Shown here: piece after piece, positions 15,011 to 31,039 of the stretch | Layout of the letters: every line of letters starts with the position of its first letter | Numbering within the stretch: position 1 is the stretch's first letter | Assembly: GCF_037948395.1 (NCBI RefSeq) | Contig: NZ_CP149940.1 | Span: forward strand, 496,001-560,000 | Reading direction: 5' to 3' | Source: Serratia nevei | Lineage (GTDB): Bacteria; Pseudomonadota; Gammaproteobacteria; Enterobacterales; Enterobacteriaceae | Length of the DNA stretch: 64,000 nucleotides | The notes under the pieces: model-generated | What the model was told of the DNA's origin: nothing | Database searches by the model: none | Seen by the model: the letters and a program-made list of their open reading frames with translations, nothing else | Made by a program: the position numbers and the translations under genes

Positions 15011-15417
15011 ATCGGCTATTTCCATTGGGAGAGAAATACCGCTACCAGAAGAGACGCTAAACTCGGGTGGTAGCTCGAACGGCGTTAGCGTACCGGCCCC
15101 AACGGATACCGGCCTTCCCGGAGGAAGCACCGTCCGAGCCACCATTGTTTGGGTGCGCATCGGCATGCTCGAATTTATACCATATTCGAACAGGGTTGGG
15201 GGATTCGGAACGCTAACTCCGGCTGTGGATTTTGCCGCAGCGGAAAAACTATAACGTTATCAGTAAAAGGAAAAAATAAGCTGTATGGAATTACAGTTTA
15301 TTTACTTTTAGGATTGGAATGTACCTCGCAATTCGGCATATCATCTTTGCGTTGAACTATCAGTTATCCATTCATGGATAATATTTCCTCATTAAGATTT
15401 ATAAATAATGGAATATG

Positions 15418-22228: not shown

Positions 22229-22921
22229 TCAGCCGGAGCCGGCGATGCGGCTGTAATAGGCCTGTTTCATCATGCTGTCGTTCAGCAATTTATTGATGGT
22301 CTGGTCGAGCACCGGCGTGGTGACGGAGGCCGGCATCAGCGTGGCGGTGATCTCCACGTCGTCGTCGCCAAAGGGTTCGATATCCAGATGCGAGATAAAG
22401 CAGTTTTCCCCTTGCAGCACCTGTTTGAATTTGGCCAGCGCCTCACGCTGCTCATGCTCGAAGGCAATGACGCAAATCTGGTAGGTAGACTCGCCGTTAA
22501 CGTCATTGAAGGGCTGTTTGTTGACCATATTGACCAGCGGGCGCAACAGGGTGTTGGCGGCGAGCACGAACAGCGTGGCGGCCAGCGCGTCACCGTACAG
22601 GCCGCAGCCGGCGCAGGCGCCGACCGCCGCGGAGCCCCAGAGCGTGGCGGCGGTGTTCAGGCCGCGGATGTTCATCCCTTCCTTCATGATGGCCCCGGCA
22701 CCGAGAAAGCCGACGCCGGAGACCACGTAGGAAATGACGCGCACCGCGCCGCCGCTGCCGTCGATGGTCATGGCCAGATGGACGAAGATCGCCGCGCTGG
22801 TGGCCACCAGCGTGTTGGTGCGCAGCACGGCGGTGCGCTGGCGGAACTGTCTTTCGTAGCCGATGGCCGCGCCCAGGATGGACGCGGTCAGCAGCGTCAG
22901 CAGTGTATGAATGAAATGCAT
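22229..22921 (-). CDS. MgtC/SapB family membrane protein
   Basis: A 230-residue protein (start at ATG 22921, MHFIHTLL; an upstream in-frame extension of 13 residues lacks support). The N-terminal membrane domain carries family motifs: AAIGYERQFRQRTAVLRTNTLV, then VVSGVGFLGAGAIMKEG and IRGLNTAATLW. The C-terminal about 90 residues form a soluble ACT-like domain. Salmonella MgtC affects growth in low Mg2+ and inhibits the F-type ATPase; other members have unclear roles. It is located between a nitrate/taurine-type ATPase gene and a LysR gene, which is not the usual mgtCB context. Confidence 0.88.
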   Translation of the reverse strand: MHFIHTLLTLLTASILGAAIGYERQFRQRTAVLRTNTLVATSAAIFVHLAMTIDGSGGAVRVISYVVSGVGFLGAGAIMKEGMNIRGLNTAATLWGSAAVGACAGCGLYGDALAATLFVLAANTLLRPLVNMVNKQPFNDVNGESTYQICVIAFEHEQREALAKFKQVLQGENCFISHLDIEPFGDDDVEITATLMPASVTTPVLDQTINKLLNDSMMKQAYYSRIAGSG

Positions 22922-23033
22922 GATAATAACTCGATGTATTATCCGCTTATCATGAGCCACCCGTGGTGGGGTAACTCTTGATAAACAGGTAGTTAAGTTG
23001 GCGGGGTTCCGTCCCGCCAGTCCAGGGCGGCGC

Positions 23034-23813
23034 TCAGTGCGCGGCGGCGATCTGCCGGCTGAGCGTCTCGCTGATTTTGTCCGTCAGCGGCTGCATCCCC
23101 TCGCGGGTGCGCGCCTCGCGGCGCTGCGTGATGTGATAGCAGCCGTCGAGGGTACCGGCGCCCAGCAGGAGGATGCGGTCAGACATCATCACCGCCTCCT
23201 CTACGCTGTGGGTCACCAGCACGATGGAGCGGGTTTTGATCTGGCGCGTGCTCCAGATACGCAGCAGGTCGCTGCGCAGGTGTTCGCCGGTATAGACGTC
23301 CAGCGCGGAAAACGGCTCGTCCAGCAACAGCAGCATCGGTTCTACCGCCAGCGCGCGCGCGAAGCCGACCCGCTGGCGCATGCCGCCGGAAAGCTCGCGC
23401 GGGTAAGCGTCGCGGTAGGGCGTGAGCCCGACCAGATCGAGCATTTTCAGCGTCTGGGCTTCGACCACCTGAGGCGGCAGATCCTGCGCCTGCAGCCCGA
23501 AGGCGATATTTTGGTAAACGTTCAGCCACGGGAAAATGGCGAAGGTCTGGAACACCATGTTGATCTGTGGATTCGGCCCCGAGACTTTTTTATCCCCCAG
23601 CATCACGCTGCCCAGATCCGGCGCGATCAGGCCGGAAAGCATGCGCAGCAGGGTGGATTTGCCCGAGCCGGACTGCCCCAAAATGCTGACGACCTCGTTG
23701 TCGTAAAGGCGCAAATTGATTTCATTCAGCACCAGACGTTTTTCTTTACCGGTAGGCTGAACGCTTTTGCTGACGTTATTCACCGTCAGCAGCGTGGTTT
23801 TTTTTACCATCAT
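23034..23813 (-). CDS. ABC transporter ATPase, nitrate/sulfonate/taurine type (unit A, no permease)
   Basis: A 259-residue ATPase with Walker A GQSGSGKST, signature LSGGMRQR and Walker B LLLLDEPFSALD, then TH for the switch His. It is of the SsuB/TauB/NrtD group. The C-terminal 30 residues beyond the core resemble those of the second ATPase gene at 25513-26304, and the two are clear paralogues. No permease or binding protein is adjacent; the nearest permease belongs to the unit upstream. It has its own leader with a small ORF and hairpin (24030-24123), so it is probably expressed separately. Confidence 0.88.
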   Translation of the reverse strand: MMVKKTTLLTVNNVSKSVQPTGKEKRLVLNEINLRLYDNEVVSILGQSGSGKSTLLRMLSGLIAPDLGSVMLGDKKVSGPNPQINMVFQTFAIFPWLNVYQNIAFGLQAQDLPPQVVEAQTLKMLDLVGLTPYRDAYPRELSGGMRQRVGFARALAVEPMLLLLDEPFSALDVYTGEHLRSDLLRIWSTRQIKTRSIVLVTHSVEEAVMMSDRILLLGAGTLDGCYHITQRREARTREGMQPLTDKISETLSRQIAAAH

Positions 23814-24029
23814 GATCCGTATCCACCCAATTAAAATATGAGCATGGAAAAAGGGCCGATATTTATCGCCGGGCAGGCGTAAAATAAATGCGGGTGCAAA
23901 TAAGCCTGACCGTTATCGGACTGTTAATACGTTTATGCTGGAGGGGTTAGCCCATCGGGCGTGCCGGTGCGGCATGCGCGCAGGCCAGAGGCTGAAGGGT
24001 AAAGCGAAGGGATGCTATAACTGACTCAT

Positions 24030-24048
24030 ATCCTGACACTTTCAGGAT
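24030..24048 (-). promoter_or_regulatory. hairpin in leader A
   Basis: On the minus strand ATCCTGA-aagtg-TCAGGAT lies 12 bases after the leader ORF stop. The surrounding TTGCATyCTGAAAG string recurs in leader B (28202-28235). A further stem (GCAAT/ATTGC, 24049-24067) overlaps the ORF end. Confidence 0.55.
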
Positions 24049-24060
24049 GCAATGGGATGA

Positions 24061-24123
24061 CTATTGCTCCTGTGACCTCAGCGATTCCAACAATAAAATA
24101 AACAACCAACTGTCGCCGTCCAT
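24061..24123 (-). CDS. putative 20-residue leader peptide A
   Basis: ATG at 24123 with GGGAG six bases upstream; 20 codons ending in TAG. The peptide starts MDGDSWLF and has a Leu/Ile-rich centre. It resembles leader peptide B (MGDESFSF...) in size, acidic N-terminus, aromatic-hydrophobic centre and the hairpin that follows. Too short for family assignment; a regulatory upstream ORF is inferred. Confidence 0.5.
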   Translation of the reverse strand: MDGDSWLFILLLESLRSQEQ

Positions 24124-24397
24124 ATCATTCTCCCGTTATTTTTCGTGTGGCCATAATACGCGTGCCATAGCCTGTTATTCAATGTGGTTACGCCGAATTA
24201 TGGCGGCAAAATGTAATTTAATATGAATGCGGGAAAGATTTTCTTTATTCATTAAACGGGGCGTAAACAGAAAGTGCCAGAATGAATATAGGCATCATTT
24301 TATGGAAATATAAACCTGAGTTAAACGAGAGAATAAGGGGGCGGACGAAAGTTAAATCATGAACCGGCCGGAGAGCGCCCTCCGGCCGGGATGGGGA

Positions 24398-25480
24398 TCA
24401 GAACTGATACATGATGCCGGTTTCGACGATGTCGTCGGCGCCGGCGCCGACGGCGTTCTGCCGTTGCAGCAGGTTGAGTTTGTACTCTACGTAGGTCGAC
24501 ATGTTGGCGTTGAAGCAGTAATTCAGTGCCAGATCCAGGTATTTGACCAGATCGGCGTCGCCAATGCCGGGCAGGTTGCGACCGCGCGTTTGCAGGTAGG
24601 CCAGCGAGGGCGTGACGCCGGAATCGAAGTGATACTGCGCGACCGCCTCAATAGCGTCCGCGCGGGGGGCGAAGCCGGCGTAGCGATCGCCGTCGACGTA
24701 GGTCATGTTCTCGGTGCGCGCGTAGCTTGCCGCCAGGTAGAGGTTGTCCTGGTCGTATTTCAGCCCCAGCGTCCAGGCCCGGGCGCGATCGCCGTCAGCC
24801 AGGCCGAAGCGCTGTTGCGCCAGCGTGCGCGCAGAGTTGGCGTAGGCGGCGCCAACGTTGAGCCCCACGCCGGTGTCGTAGGTGGCGGAAAAGGCGTAGC
24901 CATCGCCGTTTTGCGTCTGGATATCCTTCGCCCGTTGAGCGTCGTCCCCCCGATTCTTCCCCTGATATTGCAGGCCGAGATCCAGGCCGTCGACCAGGCC
25001 GCCCAGGCTGCGGTTGTGGTAGGTCAGCAGGCCGTTGGCGCGGCCGGTCATAAAGTTGTCGGCCGCTTCGTAGCTGTCGTTGCCGAATTCAGGCAGCACG
25101 TCCGTCCAGCCGGCCACGTCATACAGCAGGCCATAGTTGCGGCCGTAATCCAGGCTGCCCCAGTGGCCGAACGTCAATCCGGCGAAGCCCAGGCGGGTAT
25201 AGCTGTCGCCCGGCCCGGCGCTTTCCGGCTGATCGAGCCCTGCCTGATATTCCCACTGCCCATATCCCGTCAGCGCGTCGCCGATCTGCGTCTCGCCTTT
25301 GAAACCGAAGCGGGTATAGGAGCGGTCGCCGTTATTGTCGGCGTCGCTGCTGAAGTAATGCACGCCGTTCAGCTGGCCGTACAGATCCAGTTTATTGCCG
25401 TCTTTATTGACGATTTCCGCGCCGCTGGCGGCGGCCGGCAGCAGGATGAGCAGCGTCATCAGCACGCTTTTATGGTTCAT
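24398..25480 (-). CDS. general trimeric porin (OmpC/OmpF/PhoE type)
   Basis: A 360-residue outer-membrane porin. The signal peptide (MNHKSVLMTLLILLPAAASG) is followed by EIVNKDGNKLDLYGQLNGVHY, the usual first strand of enterobacterial porins, then YTRFGFKGETQIGDALTGYG, SYTRLGFAGLTFGHWGSLDYGRNYG and a terminal Phe (YQF) for BAM recognition. The start at 25480 is set by the signal peptide; the frame is open far upstream into the ATPase gene, which is an artefact. It is the third gene of the permease-ATPase operon, so it may feed that transporter's substrate. Confidence 0.88.
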   Translation of the reverse strand: MNHKSVLMTLLILLPAAASGAEIVNKDGNKLDLYGQLNGVHYFSSDADNNGDRSYTRFGFKGETQIGDALTGYGQWEYQAGLDQPESAGPGDSYTRLGFAGLTFGHWGSLDYGRNYGLLYDVAGWTDVLPEFGNDSYEAADNFMTGRANGLLTYHNRSLGGLVDGLDLGLQYQGKNRGDDAQRAKDIQTQNGDGYAFSATYDTGVGLNVGAAYANSARTLAQQRFGLADGDRARAWTLGLKYDQDNLYLAASYARTENMTYVDGDRYAGFAPRADAIEAVAQYHFDSGVTPSLAYLQTRGRNLPGIGDADLVKYLDLALNYCFNANMSTYVEYKLNLLQRQNAVGAGADDIVETGIMYQF

Positions 25481-25512
25481 TTCAGTTCCCCAAGTGGATG
25501 AAAACAGGGCCG

Positions 25513-26304
25513 TTAACCGGCCGATTGCGCTTGCGCGATTTTTTTGTACAGACAGCTGCGGATCCGATCGGTGAGGTGCCGCAGGCTTTCCCGGTTGCGC
25601 GCCGCACGCGGGAGGTTGACGCTGAATTCGTCGTCGATCCGTTTGCTGGTTGCGTCCAGGATCAGCACCCGATCGGACATCAGCACCGCTTCTTCGACGT
25701 CGTGCGTCACCATCACCATGGCGCGCGTGCGCAGCCGGTTGTCTCCCCACAGCGCCAGCAGGTCGCCCCGCAGTTTTTGCGCGGTAAAGATATCGAGGGC
25801 GGAGAAGGGTTCGTCCAGCAGCAAGAGGTCGGGCTCTACCGCCAGCGCCCGGGCGAAGCCCACCCGTTGACGCATGCCGCCCGAGAGCTCGCGCGGCCAG
25901 GCGTGCTCATAGCCGGTCAGGCCCACCAGGCGCAGCAGCGCTCCCAGCCGCTCGGCGATCGTCTGCGGCGGCAGCCGTTGCGCCAGCAGCCCGAAGGCGA
26001 TGTTGTCGTACACCGTTAGCCAGGGATAGAGCGCGTAGGACTGAAACACCATGCCGACGTTGGTGCTCGGGCCGTCGACCGGTTTGCCCGCCAGCGTGAG
26101 CGTGCCGCTGTCCGCTGGGATCAGCCCGGCCAGCATGCGCAGCAGCGTGGACTTGCCCGAGCCGGATTGCCCCAGAATGGTGACGAACTCGCCGGCGTGC
26201 ACGGTCAGCGTCACGTCGCGCAGCACGGGTTTGGGGCGCTTGTTTTCGCCGATAAACGTCTTGTTCAGCCGGCGGGCGCTGATAATCACGTCTTGAGTCA
26301 CCAT
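25513..26304 (-). CDS. ABC transporter ATPase, nitrate/sulfonate/taurine type (unit B)
   Basis: A 263-residue ATPase with Walker A GQSGSGKST, LSGGMRQR signature, Walker B LLLLDEPFSALD and THD. The C-terminal tail (VNLPRAARNRESLRHL...) goes beyond the core. It lies 15 bases downstream of the permease gene and 32 bases upstream of the porin gene, one operon. It is a paralogue of the ATPase at 23034-23813. Confidence 0.9.
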   Translation of the reverse strand: MVTQDVIISARRLNKTFIGENKRPKPVLRDVTLTVHAGEFVTILGQSGSGKSTLLRMLAGLIPADSGTLTLAGKPVDGPSTNVGMVFQSYALYPWLTVYDNIAFGLLAQRLPPQTIAERLGALLRLVGLTGYEHAWPRELSGGMRQRVGFARALAVEPDLLLLDEPFSALDIFTAQKLRGDLLALWGDNRLRTRAMVMVTHDVEEAVLMSDRVLILDATSKRIDDEFSVNLPRAARNRESLRHLTDRIRSCLYKKIAQAQSAG

Positions 26305-26319
26305 GTGGTTCCCCCTTGA

Positions 26320-28065
26320 TCAGTCATATTTGAATTTGGTTTCCGCGATGCGATACAGCGGTTGCCAGACGAAGATGATGCACAGCGCCACCAGCGCGCA
26401 CATGGCGGCGCAGCCCAGCGCGGACTCCGGGTTCTTGCCGGCGTCGGTGACGACGGAAATGAACGCGCCCAGCCCGGTGGCGCTGAGGGTGGTGCTGCCC
26501 CACTGGATCACCTCGGCGGCGATGGCGCTGTTCCAGGCGCCGCCGGCGGCGGAGATGATGCCCGTCACGATGTAGGGGAAGATCGCCGGCAGCATGTAGT
26601 AGCGCCACCAGCGGAAGCGGCGCAGGCCGAAGGTTTCGCTGACTTCGGTGATCTGCGTCGGAATGGCGGAAACGCCGGCGATCACGTTAAACAACACGTA
26701 CCACTGGGTACCCAGCATGATCATCGGGATGGCCCACCAGCCGAGATCCTGATGATAAATGGCGATGAAGGCGGCGATCAGCGGGTAGAAAATGTTGGGC
26801 GGAATGGCCGCCAGGATCTGGATGATCGGCTGGAAGATCTTCACCAGCCGCGGATTCATGCCGATCCACACCCCCAACGGCGTGAAGATCGCCACGCTGA
26901 GCAGCATGGCCGCGGCCACGCGCGCGGTGGTGAGCAGCATCCATTCCGGCAGCATGGCGAAGTACTGTTTGGGGAAGTATTCCCACAGCCGGTAACCGAA
27001 CCAGACGCAGGCCAGCACCACGCCGAGATACCACAGGCTGCGCCACAGCCAGTTTCCCTTGGCGGCGAGTCTGAACAGGCGGTGCAGGCCGAGGGCGTAC
27101 CACAGCCGCGGCAGCTTGAACAGCCACAGGTCAGCCAGCGCGCGCAGCGTGCGGCCGAGCGCCGTGCCGACGTGCGAGAAGGCCAGGCTGTTGTAGAACC
27201 ACGGATTGCCGAGCGGCCGGCTGGCGGTGACGTCTTCGTATTTGAAGCGCGCGGTATAGCGCACCAGCGGGCGGAAAACCAGCTGATCGAGCAGCACGAT
27301 GTTGGCGGCCAGCGCGACGATCGCATACAGGATCGCCGGCACGTTCTGCTGCGCCAGCGCTTCGGCGATGTAGGAGCCAACGCCGGGCAGTTCGACCGAG
27401 CGATCGCCGACCGGAATGGCTTCAGAGGCCACCAGGGCGAACCAGGCGGCGGATTGCGACACCATGGCGTTCCACAGCAGGCCCGGCACCGAATAGATGA
27501 ACTCCAGCCGCCAGAAGCGTTGCCACGGGTTGTAATTGAAGCTGCGGGCGGCTTCATCCAGCTCCTTGGGCACGATGCGCAGCGTCTGATACAGCGTCAG
27601 CATCATGTTCCAGGCTTGGCCGGTAAACACCGCGAAGATGGCGGTGCACTCCAGCCCCATCACGCTGTGCGGGTAGAGGTTGAGAAAATACACGGTCGTG
27701 AAGGTCAGGAACCCCACCAGCGGCACCGACTCCATAAAGTTGACGAAGGGCAGGATCACCCGGCGCAGCGGCGTATAGCGCGCGGCCAGCACGGCGAATA
27801 CCACAGAAAACAGCAGCGACCAGGCCATGCCGAGGAGAAAGCGCATGCTGGTTCTGAGCGAATAATAAAGCAGGTTCCAGGCATCAAGACTGATGGCAGA
27901 GACGTTTTGTTCATTGAAGTCACCGTGCATGTCACCCCAGGCACGAATAAAAAAGGCAATGAAAAAAACACCGATGGCGATAACGATAAAGTCGTTTAAA
28001 TAAGACTTTCTGAAAATAGATGTACCCCGGTTATTTTGCATAACGCAATACCTTATTTTTCCCAT
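26320..28065 (-). CDS. ABC transporter permease with two fused permease domains
   Basis: A 581-residue inner-membrane protein with two BPD-type permease domains in tandem. The first has about six helices after an N-terminal anchor, with the EAA-like loop ELDEAARSFNYNPWQRFWRLEF (about residues 175-200). The second has TQITEVSETFGLRRFRWWRYYMLP in the corresponding place (about 490-515). It therefore forms a complete translocation pore in one chain. No periplasmic binding protein gene is in the operon. The start at 28065 (MGKIRY) could instead be 24 bases downstream (MQNNRG). Substrate unknown; the ATPase type suggests a small anion or organic sulfur/nitrogen compound. Confidence 0.87.
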   Translation of the reverse strand: MGKIRYCVMQNNRGTSIFRKSYLNDFIVIAIGVFFIAFFIRAWGDMHGDFNEQNVSAISLDAWNLLYYSLRTSMRFLLGMAWSLLFSVVFAVLAARYTPLRRVILPFVNFMESVPLVGFLTFTTVYFLNLYPHSVMGLECTAIFAVFTGQAWNMMLTLYQTLRIVPKELDEAARSFNYNPWQRFWRLEFIYSVPGLLWNAMVSQSAAWFALVASEAIPVGDRSVELPGVGSYIAEALAQQNVPAILYAIVALAANIVLLDQLVFRPLVRYTARFKYEDVTASRPLGNPWFYNSLAFSHVGTALGRTLRALADLWLFKLPRLWYALGLHRLFRLAAKGNWLWRSLWYLGVVLACVWFGYRLWEYFPKQYFAMLPEWMLLTTARVAAAMLLSVAIFTPLGVWIGMNPRLVKIFQPIIQILAAIPPNIFYPLIAAFIAIYHQDLGWWAIPMIMLGTQWYVLFNVIAGVSAIPTQITEVSETFGLRRFRWWRYYMLPAIFPYIVTGIISAAGGAWNSAIAAEVIQWGSTTLSATGLGAFISVVTDAGKNPESALGCAAMCALVALCIIFVWQPLYRIAETKFKYD

Positions 28066-28201
28066 AAGAAATCCGTCGGCGCTCGGGGAATATGCCCGGC
28101 GACACCAGATAAATACCGCCGTAGCGGTTGAGACAGACGTTGTTTTCGCAGCGGGGCGATGGGTGGGCCGGCAGAGCGGGAAAGGCCGTCAGAAGGGGAG
28201 C

Positions 28202-28235
28202 GGTTGCCGCATTCCGTGTCTTTCAGAATGCAACC
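28202..28235 (-). promoter_or_regulatory. hairpin in leader B
   Basis: On the minus strand GGTT-GCATTC-(loop)-GAATGC-gcc-AACC forms an interrupted stem just after the leader ORF. It contains the TTGCATyCTGAAAG string also found in leader A. Confidence 0.55.
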
Positions 28236-28244
28236 TGGATGGCA

Positions 28245-28298
28245 TTACTGAAAGACGCCCAATAGCATTAGCGTAAAACTAAAACTTTCATCGCCCAT
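28245..28298 (-). CDS. putative 17-residue leader peptide B
   Basis: ATG at 28298 with a strong GAGGAGG six bases upstream; 17 codons (MGDESFSFTLMLLG...) ending in TAA. It lies about 180 bases before the permease start. Similar in size and character to leader peptide A, which also precedes an ABC gene. Confidence 0.55.
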   Translation of the reverse strand: MGDESFSFTLMLLGVFQ

Positions 28299-28486
28299 GG
28301 GGCCCTCCTCGGTTTAAATATGGCAGGGAGAGGGTAATGTGTTTCACTAATAAAAAGCAATTGGTGGAATAGGGTTTTTACGGTTGATATGTAACAGGAT
28401 GAATATTCATTTTTTAATCGCTATATCCGGAAAATGAAATAACGCATGGTGATGGCAATAAAGGCGGTAAAAATAAATCGCGGCGA

Positions 28487-28519
28487 AATAAAACGGCGCG
28501 CCTGAAGGGGGCGCGCCGC
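28487..28519 (-). terminator. terminator of the PuuA-like/GNAT/GT20 operon
   Basis: On the minus strand GGCGCGCC-cccttca-GGCGCGCC is followed by GTTTTATTT, nine bases after the stop of the GT20-like gene. Confidence 0.75.
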
Positions 28520-28525
28520 CGTAAA

Positions 28526-29215
28526 TCAATAAACCTGCCTGCCGTTGATGCCGGCGGGGAAAATGCCGGTGGCGAACAGATGCCCGTTGGCCTGGATCTG
28601 ATCGTCGGGCAGCATCTCCAGCGGGAACTCGGCCGCCAGGCAGCTGAGAAAGGCGTTGCGATCGTCCGTGGTGGTAAAGCCGATCAGATCGTAGAACAGC
28701 AGCGAAGCGATCAGCTGGCGATGTTCCGGGATGCGCCGCAGCAGCGCCGCCGACGGGAACGGCAGGTGGAAGAAGAACGCGCAGGCGTTCAGCAGCCCTT
28801 GCTCCTTCAGCGCCTGGGCGCAGGGCAGCAGCTGATAGTCGTCGATGCAGACGATGTCGCCGGGGCACAGGTGCTCGCAGGCGATATCGGCAAAACGGCG
28901 GTTCAGCTGCCGGTAGGCGCGGTAGTTTTCCGGCGTGAAATGCGCCTTCTCCGGCTGGTTGTGGAACACCGGCCACAGGCCGTCGTGGTAATAGCCCTGA
29001 TAGTGGCGGCGGAACTCCTCGATCGACAGCGGAAAGGTCACCTGATCGTAACCGGCGCGCTGCCGGCAGCTGATCGGGCGCTGCGCGAAATTCTGCACGT
29101 CGCCGTTCCAGCCGAGCCACAGCCCCGGCTCGGCGTCGGCCGCCAGCGTCTGGCCGGCGCAGGCCAGATCCTTACCGTCGCACTGCTTGTTGGAAATCAG
29201 CACCAAACGAGACAT
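28526..29215 (-). CDS. half-length GT20 (trehalose-6-phosphate synthase N-domain) protein
   Basis: A 229-residue protein matching only the N-terminal Rossmann domain of OtsA (normally about 470 residues). It has SRLVLISNK at the start, LWLGWNGD, LWPVFHNQ, a DDYQLLP where OtsA has HDYHLLP (the acceptor-site Asp is kept) and FFFHLPFPSAALL. The UDP-glucose-binding C-terminal domain is absent. The stop is followed directly by a terminator, and the reading frame is clean, so this looks like a fixed short form rather than decay. GGAGG precedes the ATG at 29215. It is the last gene of an operon with a GNAT and a PuuA-like ligase. Without the C-domain it should not make trehalose-6-phosphate by the usual mechanism. 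Confidence 0.78.
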   Translation of the reverse strand: MSRLVLISNKQCDGKDLACAGQTLAADAEPGLWLGWNGDVQNFAQRPISCRQRAGYDQVTFPLSIEEFRRHYQGYYHDGLWPVFHNQPEKAHFTPENYRAYRQLNRRFADIACEHLCPGDIVCIDDYQLLPCAQALKEQGLLNACAFFFHLPFPSAALLRRIPEHRQLIASLLFYDLIGFTTTDDRNAFLSCLAAEFPLEMLPDDQIQANGHLFATGIFPAGINGRQVY

Positions 29216-29228
29216 GGGGGCCTCCTTA

Positions 29229-29639
29229 TCAGTGAAGGGCGCGCAGGGCGTGCGCCGAACCATCGGCGCGCCAGGGCGCCTGCAGCGCGGGCAGCGTGAC
29301 GCGCAGGCCGCGCAAGGCCGGATGCGCCAGGCAGCAGCGCGTCAGCCAGCTTCCCAGCCCGACGCCGCGGTATTCGGCGCTGACGAACAGTTCGCTCACC
29401 GACGCGAAGGTGGCGTAATCGGTCACCATGCGGGCGAAGCCGAGCAGGTGGCGCTTGCGGTACAGCCCGAAGCACAGGCCGTGGTGCACCAGGCGCTCGG
29501 CCGCCGCCCGATCCGGCAGGCTGAGGAAACGTTGGATCGCCTCGATATCCAACAGCTGCCGATCGGTGCTGATATGAAAAACGCCTTTGCGCCAGCAGAG
29601 CAGCGGCTGCACGGGCGTCCGTTGCGGTTGCATATTCAT
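29229..29639 (-). CDS. GNAT-family N-acetyltransferase
   Basis: A 136-residue acetyltransferase with the GNAT core: LVHHGLCFGLYRKRHLLGFARMVTD then ELFVSAEYRGVGLGSWLTRCCL, which carries the acetyl-CoA-binding R/Q-x-x-G-x-G/A (YRGVGLG). AAGGA lies upstream of the ATG at 29639. The frame extends into the ligase gene upstream and was trimmed. It lies between the PuuA-like ligase and the half-GT20 gene; substrate unknown, possibly a product of the ligase. Confidence 0.85.
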   Translation of the reverse strand: MNMQPQRTPVQPLLCWRKGVFHISTDRQLLDIEAIQRFLSLPDRAAAERLVHHGLCFGLYRKRHLLGFARMVTDYATFASVSELFVSAEYRGVGLGSWLTRCCLAHPALRGLRVTLPALQAPWRADGSAHALRALH

Positions 29640-29668
29640 GATTATCCTTAGGTTAATGAACCGGGTGG

Positions 29669-31039
29669 TTACAGCATCCAGCCGAGTTCGGCGGCGGTGA
29701 CCTGTTCCTCGAAGCGGCGCAGTTCGGCGCTTTTGCAGGTGTGCCACAGGGTGCAAAACGCCGGGCCGAGCAGCTCACGCAGCGGATCGCTGTGGCGGAA
29801 CAGCGCCAGCGCCTCCTGTTGGCCGAGCGGCAAGGGCGCGGCGTTGTCGCTCTCGCAGCCGTTGGCTGCGGGCGGCAGTGGCAGCGGGTTTGCCAGCCCG
29901 TGCAGCAGGCCGCCGAGCATCACCGCCAGCGCCAGGTAGGGGTTGGCGTCGGCGCCGGCCAGGCGATATTCGATGCGCTGGTTGGCGCTGTCGGCGCAGG
30001 GCAGGCGCAGCGCCACCGTGCGGTTGTTGTGGCCCCAGGAGGCGCGCAGCGGCACGTGCATGCCAGGGCGGAAGCGGCGGAACGCGTTGATGTTGGGCGC
30101 CAGGATCGCCATCGACGCCGGCATCAGCGCTAGCATGCCTGCCATCGCCTGCTGCATGTTGTCGCTCAGTTCGCCCGGCGCGCCGGTCAGCAGGTTCTCG
30201 CCGTGCTCGTCCTGCAAACTGATGTGGAAATGCAGCCCGCTGCCGGCGGCGTGGGCGCAGGGCTTGGCCATAAAGCAGGCATGCTGGTGATGTTGCTCGG
30301 CAATCTGCCGCGTCAGGCGTTTCAGCGCCATGATCTGGTCGCAGGCTTCCAGCACACGCCGGCTGTGATGCAGATTCAGCTCGTATTGGCCAGAGGCGGC
30401 TTCGGCCACCACGCCGGTCAACGGCAGGTTTTGCAGGCGGGCGTGCCGTTCGATGTCGCTCAGCAGCGCATGGTGACGTTCCGGCGCATCCACCGCGAAG
30501 CTCTGCGTTGGGCAGGTTTCCGCCTCGGCGGGGTGCTGCGGATCCTGCAGGTAGAACTCCAGTTCGGCCGCCACCACCGGGAAGCAGTTGCGCTCGTGCA
30601 GGTGCTTCAGCACCCGTTGCAGCACCACGCGCGGCTCCAGCTCGCAGGCGCCGCCGTCGGCGTTTTGCATCGTCAGCAGCAGTTGGGCGTGGCGTTCGGG
30701 ATCGCGCGCGCAGGGGCGCAGCGTGCCGGGCACCGGCAGGCACAGACGGTCCGGCTCGCCCGCCCGTTGCCCCAGCCCGCTTTCTTCAATCACCCGGCCG
30801 TGCAGATCCAGGGCGTAGATCGACAGCGGAAAGTAGCAGCCTTTCTCCAGCCCAAAGGCTTCGGCGATCGGCAGCCGCTTGCCGCGCAGCTGGCCGTTCA
30901 GATCGTGCAGATAAATATCCAGCTGTTCGGTCTGCGGATAGCGCTGCAGGTAGTGTTCCAGCTCTTTGTGGAAGGCGCGCGTTGGCGAAGCGGGCAGCTC
31001 CGCCAGCAGCGGATTGAAGCCGATGATATTAGAATGCAT
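29669..31039 (-). CDS. gamma-glutamylputrescine synthetase-like ligase (PuuA family)
   Basis: A 456-residue glutamine-synthetase-fold enzyme resembling E. coli PuuA along its length: RYPQTEQLDIYLHDLNGQLRGKR, EKGCYFPLSIYALDL, VVAAELEFYLQDP, EAASGQYELNLHHS, HACFMAKPCAHAAGSGLHFHIS, NAFRRFRPGMHVPLRASWGHNNRTVALR and VEYR-like IEYRLAGADANPYLALA. These include the metal-binding Glu/His and ATP-binding Arg blocks. PuuA joins glutamate to putrescine. No other puu genes are near; it starts an operon with a GNAT and a half-GT20. The amine substrate is therefore open. Confidence 0.87.
   Translation of the reverse strand: MHSNIIGFNPLLAELPASPTRAFHKELEHYLQRYPQTEQLDIYLHDLNGQLRGKRLPIAEAFGLEKGCYFPLSIYALDLHGRVIEESGLGQRAGEPDRLCLPVPGTLRPCARDPERHAQLLLTMQNADGGACELEPRVVLQRVLKHLHERNCFPVVAAELEFYLQDPQHPAEAETCPTQSFAVDAPERHHALLSDIERHARLQNLPLTGVVAEAASGQYELNLHHSRRVLEACDQIMALKRLTRQIAEQHHQHACFMAKPCAHAAGSGLHFHISLQDEHGENLLTGAPGELSDNMQQAMAGMLALMPASMAILAPNINAFRRFRPGMHVPLRASWGHNNRTVALRLPCADSANQRIEYRLAGADANPYLALAVMLGGLLHGLANPLPLPPAANGCESDNAAPLPLGQQEALALFRHSDPLRELLGPAFCTLWHTCKSAELRRFEEQVTAAELGWML

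Follow-up and report, generated by a model that had tools for sequence, protein, structure and literature searches.

We examined a 64-kb stretch of the Serratia nevei genome (5.46 Mb, two contigs), hereafter the window, in which two neighbouring units of an ATP-binding cassette (ABC) transporter system, unit 1 and unit 2, lie with their leaders on the minus strand. Each unit is preceded by a conserved leader with a short open reading frame (ORF; mini-ORF 1 and mini-ORF 2) and the element TTGCATYCTGAAAG (Table 1). A first-pass annotation had described two leader ORFs of 17–20 codons with a good Shine-Dalgarno sequence (SD) and acidic starts, and both were found as described. It had placed them ahead of two ABC transporter units; two units are indeed present, but their actual content is a permease, ATPase 1 and a porin in unit 1, and ATPase 2 and an MgtC-family gene, followed by a LysR gene, in unit 2. 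Perfect copies of TTGCATYCTGAAAG occur exactly twice in the genome, both at these leaders. The element is present in 7 of 295 genomes of the order, and inspection of the single copies in the other six of these (L005–L010) revealed no comparable leader.

Conservation of the leader peptides

A permease orthologue with at least 88% identity was present in 11 of the 30 Serratia genomes searched, and both leaders were found in all 11; the search strings were taken from the sequences themselves, which makes this a presence check and not a blind test. Both leaders were also present in a genome of another genus of the same family (G634), with 84% permease identity and the same gene order. One locus, L014, lacks the porin between the units. 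The unit 1 peptides were MGDESFSFTLMLLGVFQ and close variants, with MDDDIFNVSLTLLSIFQ in L014 and MDDGSFSLVLLDKFQ in G634, and those of unit 2 were MDGDSWLFILLLESLRSQEQ and variants including MEGDSW, with MDGDGSLFNGLLNLLKDQEQ in L014 and MDTDGSLFIGLLSLLEA, shortened by an earlier stop, in G634. In a metagenome-assembled genome labelled Rickettsiella (L021; 63% permease identity), the permease is preceded by a similarly laid-out leader, MDSDCSSRQQNIALQSVSSH with a hairpin. The peptides start with MGDE, MDDD, MDDG, MDGD, MEGD or MDTD, and at least two acidic residues lie at positions 2–4 in seven of seven leaders (both units of the window, L014 and G634, and L021). Only 2 of the 25 ORFs of 10–25 codons with an SD and ATG in the window share this property, and they are exactly mini-ORFs 1 and 2.

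A covariance model trained on 12 leaders, with G634 leader 2 left out, recovered the left-out leader at E = 2e-8. Searched against 198 genomes of the family, the model gave strong matches only in the window's own genome, where there were two; ten further matches in nine other genomes (E 0.009–0.09) were not inspected and were put down to chance. The idea that the leader serves a wider regulon was rejected, given only two exact motif copies in the genome and strong model matches in this genome only.

The peptides might instead act on their own, for example at the membrane, with the RNA hairpins being secondary. Peptide 2 does contain a hydrophobic stretch, SWLFILLLESL, but this is not kept in L014 (GSLFNGLLNLL) or in G634, the identical 3' codons of unit 1 fall within hairpin A (see below), and 15–20 residues are short for a membrane span; we consider such an activity highly improbable.

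Upstream of mini-ORF 1 (28299–28345), CCCTCTCCC can pair with the SD GAGGAGGG, and so the start of mini-ORF 1 may itself be gated; L014 has CCCTCTCCC together with GGGAGGG. About 90 nt upstream of mini-ORF 1, the window, L014 and G634 all carry the same block, TTCATCCTGTTACATAT (approximately 28385–28412), which may be a promoter or operator for unit 1.

Competing hairpins in each leader

The first-pass annotation had proposed a hairpin at TTGCATYCTGAAAG. The element is present at both leaders, but at each of them two competing hairpins, A and B, can be drawn rather than one: TTGCATYCTGAAAG is the arm common to both, which A pairs with the end of the mini-ORF and its stop codon, and B with a downstream arm. 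The arm that A and B share in unit 1 is GCATTCTGAAAG, and its upstream and downstream partners, CAGUAAUGC and CAGAAUGC, are near repeats. Across eight distinct alignment rows, pairing held in 94.6% of the cells of unit 1 hairpin A (30–47% in slid controls) and in 100% of those of unit 1 hairpin B (17–59% in slid controls); three pairs of A and one of B had changed on both sides. A single base change in the shared arm of G634 unit 1 is matched by changes in both partner arms, and hairpin B of unit 1 differs from that of unit 2 by one compensated U-A to C-G pair. The alternative stems overlapping the ORF are backed by covariation in unit 1 and by folding alone in unit 2.

Free folding predicted hairpin A in eight of ten leaders, and hairpin B in L014 and G634 unit 1. 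When the end of the ORF was masked to mimic a ribosome on the stop codon, B was predicted in eight of ten. The isolated hairpins had shuffle z-scores of −3.3 to −8.3, for segments picked because they pair. In an unbiased thermodynamic switch scan, 19 leaders were each compared with 150 shuffles. None or one of the shuffles scored as high for L014 leader 1, L014 leader 2, G634 leader 1, L026 and L024, six did for L019, and at least 16 did for the other 13 leaders, among them the two of the window; the scan was thus significant for both L014 leaders and for G634 leader 1. The 5' arm of B begins 13 nt past the stop codon in unit 1 (three species) and 12 nt in unit 2 (two species), that is 12–13 nt in five of seven leaders, the others being 20 nt (G634 unit 2) and 9 nt (L021). 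A distance of 12–13 nt past the stop is about the reach of a terminating ribosome.

Hairpin B lies 216 nt from the first gene in unit 2 and, taking 28041 as the likely start, about 170 nt from it in unit 1. A C-rich, G-poor stretch follows B in each leader, and would fit a Rho loading site. The excess of C over G, 24 in leader 1 and 19 in leader 2, was reached in about 1% and about 5%, respectively, of random 300-nt stretches; the excess was smaller in L014 (16 and 12), and was 17 in G634 unit 2. Attenuation by an intrinsic terminator was rejected, as neither hairpin B has a terminator-like site. The annotation had matched the leaders to no known riboswitch class, and this holds: Rfam 15 contained no family at gathering score near them, the six sub-threshold matches in 23800–28600 (best E 0.17, with E up to 10) included no Mg2+ leader and were taken as chance, and a riboswitch was likewise rejected.

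If the hairpins merely stabilised or processed the mRNA, with the mini-ORFs as by-products without regulatory function, conservation of the sequence would by itself also be expected, and this reading fits both the variation of the free folds between species and the lack of significance of the window's own leaders in the switch scan. Differences in ORF length between species are in frame, however, with the start codon, SD and acidic residues kept (including an Asp-to-Glu change), and the stop-codon region is itself part of hairpin A, where compensatory changes are seen. We regard the by-product reading as quite improbable, and judge it very likely that the leaders act as cis-acting translated switches. 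Control by a leader peptide or RNA element, as first annotated, is supported by the conservation and the covariation; the annotation had named a lack of conservation of the mini-ORF or stem upstream of orthologous genes among the findings that would speak against it, and both are kept in Serratia and G634.

Table 1. Coordinates of the leader features and genes within the window
Feature	Position	Strand	Remarks
Mini-ORF 1, MGDESFSFTLMLLGVFQ-stop	28245..28298	-	SD GAGGAGGG just upstream; kept in 11/11 Serratia loci and G634
Hairpin A, leader 1	28218..28256	-	Last codons and stop of mini-ORF 1 pair with GCATTCTGAAAGAC; -16.0 kcal/mol
Hairpin B, leader 1	28209..28231	-	GCATTCTG pairs with CGGAATGC; 5' arm common with A
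C-rich, G-poor stretch, leader 1; candidate Rho loading site	28126..28203	-	C minus G = 24 in 78 nt, top 0.11% of window positions
ABC permease, duplicated, first gene of unit 1	26320..28065	-	Likely start 28041
ABC ATPase 1, unit 1	25513..26304	-	
Porin, unit 1	24398..25480	-	PF00267
PhoP box, upstream copy, CGTTTA-N5-GGTTTA	24311..24327	-	Exact match to BGTTTA-N5-BGTTTA; same place in L014
PhoP box, downstream copy, TGTTTA-N5-CGTTTA	24253..24269	-	Exact match; 129 nt before mini-ORF 2
Mini-ORF 2, MDGDSWLFILLLESLRSQEQ-stop	24061..24123	-	SD GGGAG; kept in 11/11 Serratia loci; earlier stop shortens the G634 copy
Hairpin A, leader 2	24043..24072	-	CAGGAGCAAT (last codons and stop) pairs with ATTGCATCCTG; -9.8 kcal/mol
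Hairpin B, leader 2	24030..24048	-	ATCCTGA pairs with TCAGGAT; -8.3 kcal/mol
C-rich, G-poor stretch, leader 2	23937..24014	-	C minus G = 19 in 78 nt, top 0.45% of window positions
ABC ATPase 2, first gene of unit 2	23034..23813	-	
MgtC-family gene, after ATPase 2 on the same strand	22229..22960	-	PF02308

PhoP boxes and gene content

The window was scanned for PhoP boxes in the reported form (C/T/G)GTTTA (PMC3335776). Two exact boxes were found in the window, compared with 0.02 expected, both before leader 2 and pointing towards it. The whole genome contained 15 exact boxes, and a reversed-pattern control gave 6. The only other close same-strand pair in the genome lies before phoP (464 bits with the PhoP model, cut-off 336); these two exact boxes, 32 bp apart (G000:C1:2150650-2150698; L131), provided the box scan with a positive control. 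In L014 both boxes occupy the same place, with the downstream box again at 129 nt. In G634 the nearer box is kept at 128 nt with two mismatches to the KGTTTA form, and two-mismatch boxes across the G634 locus were not above chance (8 found, 5.4 expected). By eye, a -10-like hexamer, AATGAT, lies 11 nt past the upstream box, a promoter scan giving instead TAAAAT at 8 nt; the spacing criterion for the PhoP regulon is a box 11–12 nt (or 21–23 nt) before the -10 hexamer. It is likely that unit 2 is under PhoP control.

The MgtC-family gene scored 160 bits with the NF011912 model (below its cut-off of 255) and 74 bits with the SapB-type model, and by these scores it is nearer to the former. Between ATPase 2 and this gene there are 73–112 nt, depending on the start codon, with a hairpin without a U-tract inside (by eye). 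ATPase 2 is 56–58% identical to the single ATPase of the Rahnella-, Erwinia- and Izhakiella-type operons and ATPase 1 50–52%; for three betaproteobacterial loci ATPase 1 is the closer (50–52%, versus 45–48% for ATPase 2). A likely history is that leader, permease and ATPase were duplicated and the second permease was then lost.

Upstream of unit 1 (28526–31039) lie glutamine-synthetase-like and GNAT genes and a gene for a 245-aa trehalose-phosphate-synthase-like protein (glycosyltransferase family 20, GT20), and glutamine-synthetase-like and GT20 genes likewise adjoin the operon in L014. Flanking genes were rejected as a clue to the substrate, the ORF lists of orthologous loci being dissimilar when judged by eye. 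Elsewhere in the window, a C4 antisense RNA (RF01695, 76.9 bits) was found at 15063–15149 on the minus strand, which we take to be a phage P1/P7-type immunity RNA.

Leaders of distant orthologous operons

More distant enterobacterial orthologues carry other leader ORFs instead. Fifteen non-Serratia loci with an orthologous permease were compared, a set without L021 and the duplicate loci L058–L061, and in 14 of them a short ORF with a PPS (Pro-Pro-Ser) core was found before the permease. The core is DEPPS in all eight loci of Rahnella, Izhakiella, Erwinia, Pantoea and genus g236, some of them near-identical, QPPSC in all four loci of families f76 and f130, and MPPS and IPPS in two Neisseriales loci with no clear SD; the Burkholderia locus (L023) had no PPS-core ORF before its permease. 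In f76 and f130 (L062–L065, L138–L149) the leader ORF has 12–15 codons and the core LQPPSC, once LKPPSC, and a PPS ORF was present in 12 of 12 loci with an intact permease (four already among the 15, one as KPPSC), while two f76 genomes with broken permeases were left unscored. The codons of the DEPPS core (GAT/GAC, GAA/GAG, CCC/CCT, CCG/CCA) and of the QPPSC core (CTA/TTA/CTT/CTG, CAA/CAG, TGT/TGC) vary synonymously, which points to a selected, translated peptide there; the pattern is less clear in the Serratia peptides.

For Rahnella, Erwinia ErVv1 and Pantoea, two alternative pairings can be drawn for a later arm (GGATAATC or GAGATAATC), one with the end of the DEPPS ORF and one with a further GATTATC, with significance only for L026 (6 of 150 shuffles as high for L019). 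A second ORF of 67–77 codons follows the DEPPS ORF in eight of eight loci, and a Pfam search with four of these proteins gave nothing above cut-off. In L016, L019, L022 and L026, a PhoP-box-like site with two mismatches was found 53–55 nt from the ORF, with a -10-like hexamer 12 nt beyond the site (chance per locus 0.014–0.026); L018 and L020 have sites with three mismatches and L057 has none. Upstream of the QPPSC ORF in L064 and L065 lies GCAATCATTATCATTTTTTATTG, which resembles the Fur box consensus, and because of this resemblance another metal is possible as the control in the QPPSC family. A leader before every duplicated permease was rejected: eight less related loci found at phylum level (L093–L100; about 570–590 bits, versus about 1000 for orthologues) and the genome's own second copy (L066) had neither a PPS ORF nor an acidic mini-ORF, with L067 and L068 outside the leader comparison.

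These PPS cores, standing in place of acidic starts, would point to proline-dependent pausing, and the same hairpin switch might report a signal other than Mg2+, such as general ribosome stability, EttA or EF-P, or a specific nascent-chain arrest. The absence of PhoP boxes from unit 1 fits such a signal, and EttA is reported to act on early acidic residues generally, and not on MgtL alone (PMC11282234). On the other hand, the Serratia leader peptides have no PPS, and no two consecutive prolines in those that were read, and the MgtC-family gene and PhoP boxes of unit 2 point to Mg2+. A non-Mg2+ signal appears somewhat unlikely.

Proposed mechanism

We propose that each leader is a translation-controlled switch, probably Mg2+-responsive, of the mgtL/mgtCBR kind, a proposal whose chances we consider evenly balanced. 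Progress of the ribosome through the predicted peptide would select which of the two mutually exclusive hairpins forms, and the early acidic residues (M-D-x-D type) would allow low Mg2+ to disturb this progress, as has been reported for MgtL. When Mg2+ is sufficient, ribosomes would reach the stop codon and cover the first arm, so that B could form and transcription would mostly stop in the C-rich spacer, probably by Rho. At low Mg2+, ribosomes would drop off past the acidic codons, A would form, and transcription would run on into the ABC genes, plus MgtC in unit 2. Unit 2 would first need PhoP-driven transcription, and unit 1 would use another promoter. That the signal is Mg2+ or ribosome destabilisation could equally well prove right or wrong, and output through Rho is somewhat more doubtful than that.

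Several observations weigh against the Mg2+-responsive switch. No PhoP box precedes unit 1, where the best site has 3–4 mismatches in three species. The middle part of peptide 1 varies mostly non-synonymously, and in G634 mini-ORF 2 stops earlier and hairpin B of unit 2 is lost. The score of unit 1 hairpin B was reached by 64 of 500 column shuffles. In unit 2, 96.7% of the cells of hairpin A and 87.5% of those of hairpin B (with one further outer pair) were paired, percentages that say little because no pair changed on both sides, and neither hairpin shows covariation within the unit. L013 and G634 unit 2 do not fold B even with the ORF end masked, and the balance between A and B differs between species, as the free folds favour B in L014 and G634 unit 1. 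For the two leaders of the window the switch scan fell short of significance, with 39 and 38 of 150 shuffles scoring as high. The excess of C over G is weak in G634 unit 1 (9) and L021 (7), and Rho-dependent termination is stated not to have been detected for E. coli mgtA in work cited by PMC11552253.

Leader peptides thought to sense Mg2+ by ribosome destabilisation have so far been known at a few mgtA, mgtB and corA genes. If the proposal is true, a clade of ABC transporters would join these systems, with a suggested role in Mg2+ stress, and the acidic, acidic-proline and proline-serine peptides before orthologous operons would form a comparative series, which could show directly which nascent-chain features make the ribosome a sensor. 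A bolder reading, to which we give slightly less than even odds, is that this undescribed ABC clade (duplicated permease and ATPase) may carry its own nascent-peptide sensors across beta- and gammaproteobacteria, with a lineage-specific ribosome-weakening start or core (MDxD, DEPPS or QPPSC), that in Serratia the sensor and the ATPase may have been duplicated and the copy, together with mgtC, brought under PhoP, and that the transporter may be a Mg2+-stress system under the control of ribosome stability and not of a ligand-binding RNA.

Comparison with known systems

Among the titles and beginnings of abstracts listed in a search of the openly accessible literature, there was no description of these leaders. 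In amino-acid attenuators of the trp/his type, the position of the ribosome chooses between 1:2 and 2:3 pairing. The Serratia leaders differ from these: no amino-acid codon is repeated in a run, and hairpin B lacks a terminator-like site.

In the mgtL leader of mgtA (E. coli, Salmonella), ribosomes are reported to drop off because of the acidic residues Glu2 and Asp4 when Mg2+ is low, an effect that EttA relieves, and the leader is described as having alternative RNA folds and Rho-dependent termination when mgtL is translated (PMC11282234). The Serratia leaders likewise have a short ORF with early acidic residues; however, peptide and RNA are unrelated in sequence, there are no prolines between the acidic residues and no Rfam match, the genes downstream are an ABC system and an MgtC-family gene, and any response to Rho and Mg2+ is a prediction. 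MgtQ, encoded between mgtC and mgtB in Salmonella, is reported to need Asp2 and Glu5 and to involve 1:2 versus 2:3 stems (PMC8092293), and resembles the Serratia leaders in its early acidic residues and in alternative stems that overlap the ORF and have an arm in common. By that account MgtQ frees the mgtB ribosome-binding site and acts on translation, whereas the Serratia hairpins lie 170–216 nt from the gene.

The Salmonella mgtCBR leader is described as carrying two small ORFs (mgtM and mgtP) and attenuators (PMC3641672), with two PhoP boxes before the mgtC gene (PMC3335776). Small leader ORFs, an mgtC gene and two PhoP boxes are shared with Serratia unit 2, for which attenuation is proposed as well, but mgtM and mgtP are reported to answer ATP and proline, the Serratia peptides are acidic and not proline-rich, and the Serratia mgtC-family gene comes after an ABC ATPase. 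At corA, translation of the small ORF corL is reported to work against the gene that follows, and Rho and Mg2+ play a part (PMC11552253); the likeness to the Serratia leaders is in the small leader ORF and in the role proposed here for Rho and Mg2+. CorL differs in having few acidic or proline residues, as the same paper notes, and in having no PhoP promoter.

With the kind of Mg2+ leader peptide represented by MgtL, MgtQ and CorL, the Serratia leaders share a conserved short SD-bearing ORF, early acidic residues and alternative stem-loops overlapping the ORF, and they are best explained as relatives of the mgtA, mgtCBR and corA Mg2+ leaders in kind, not in sequence.

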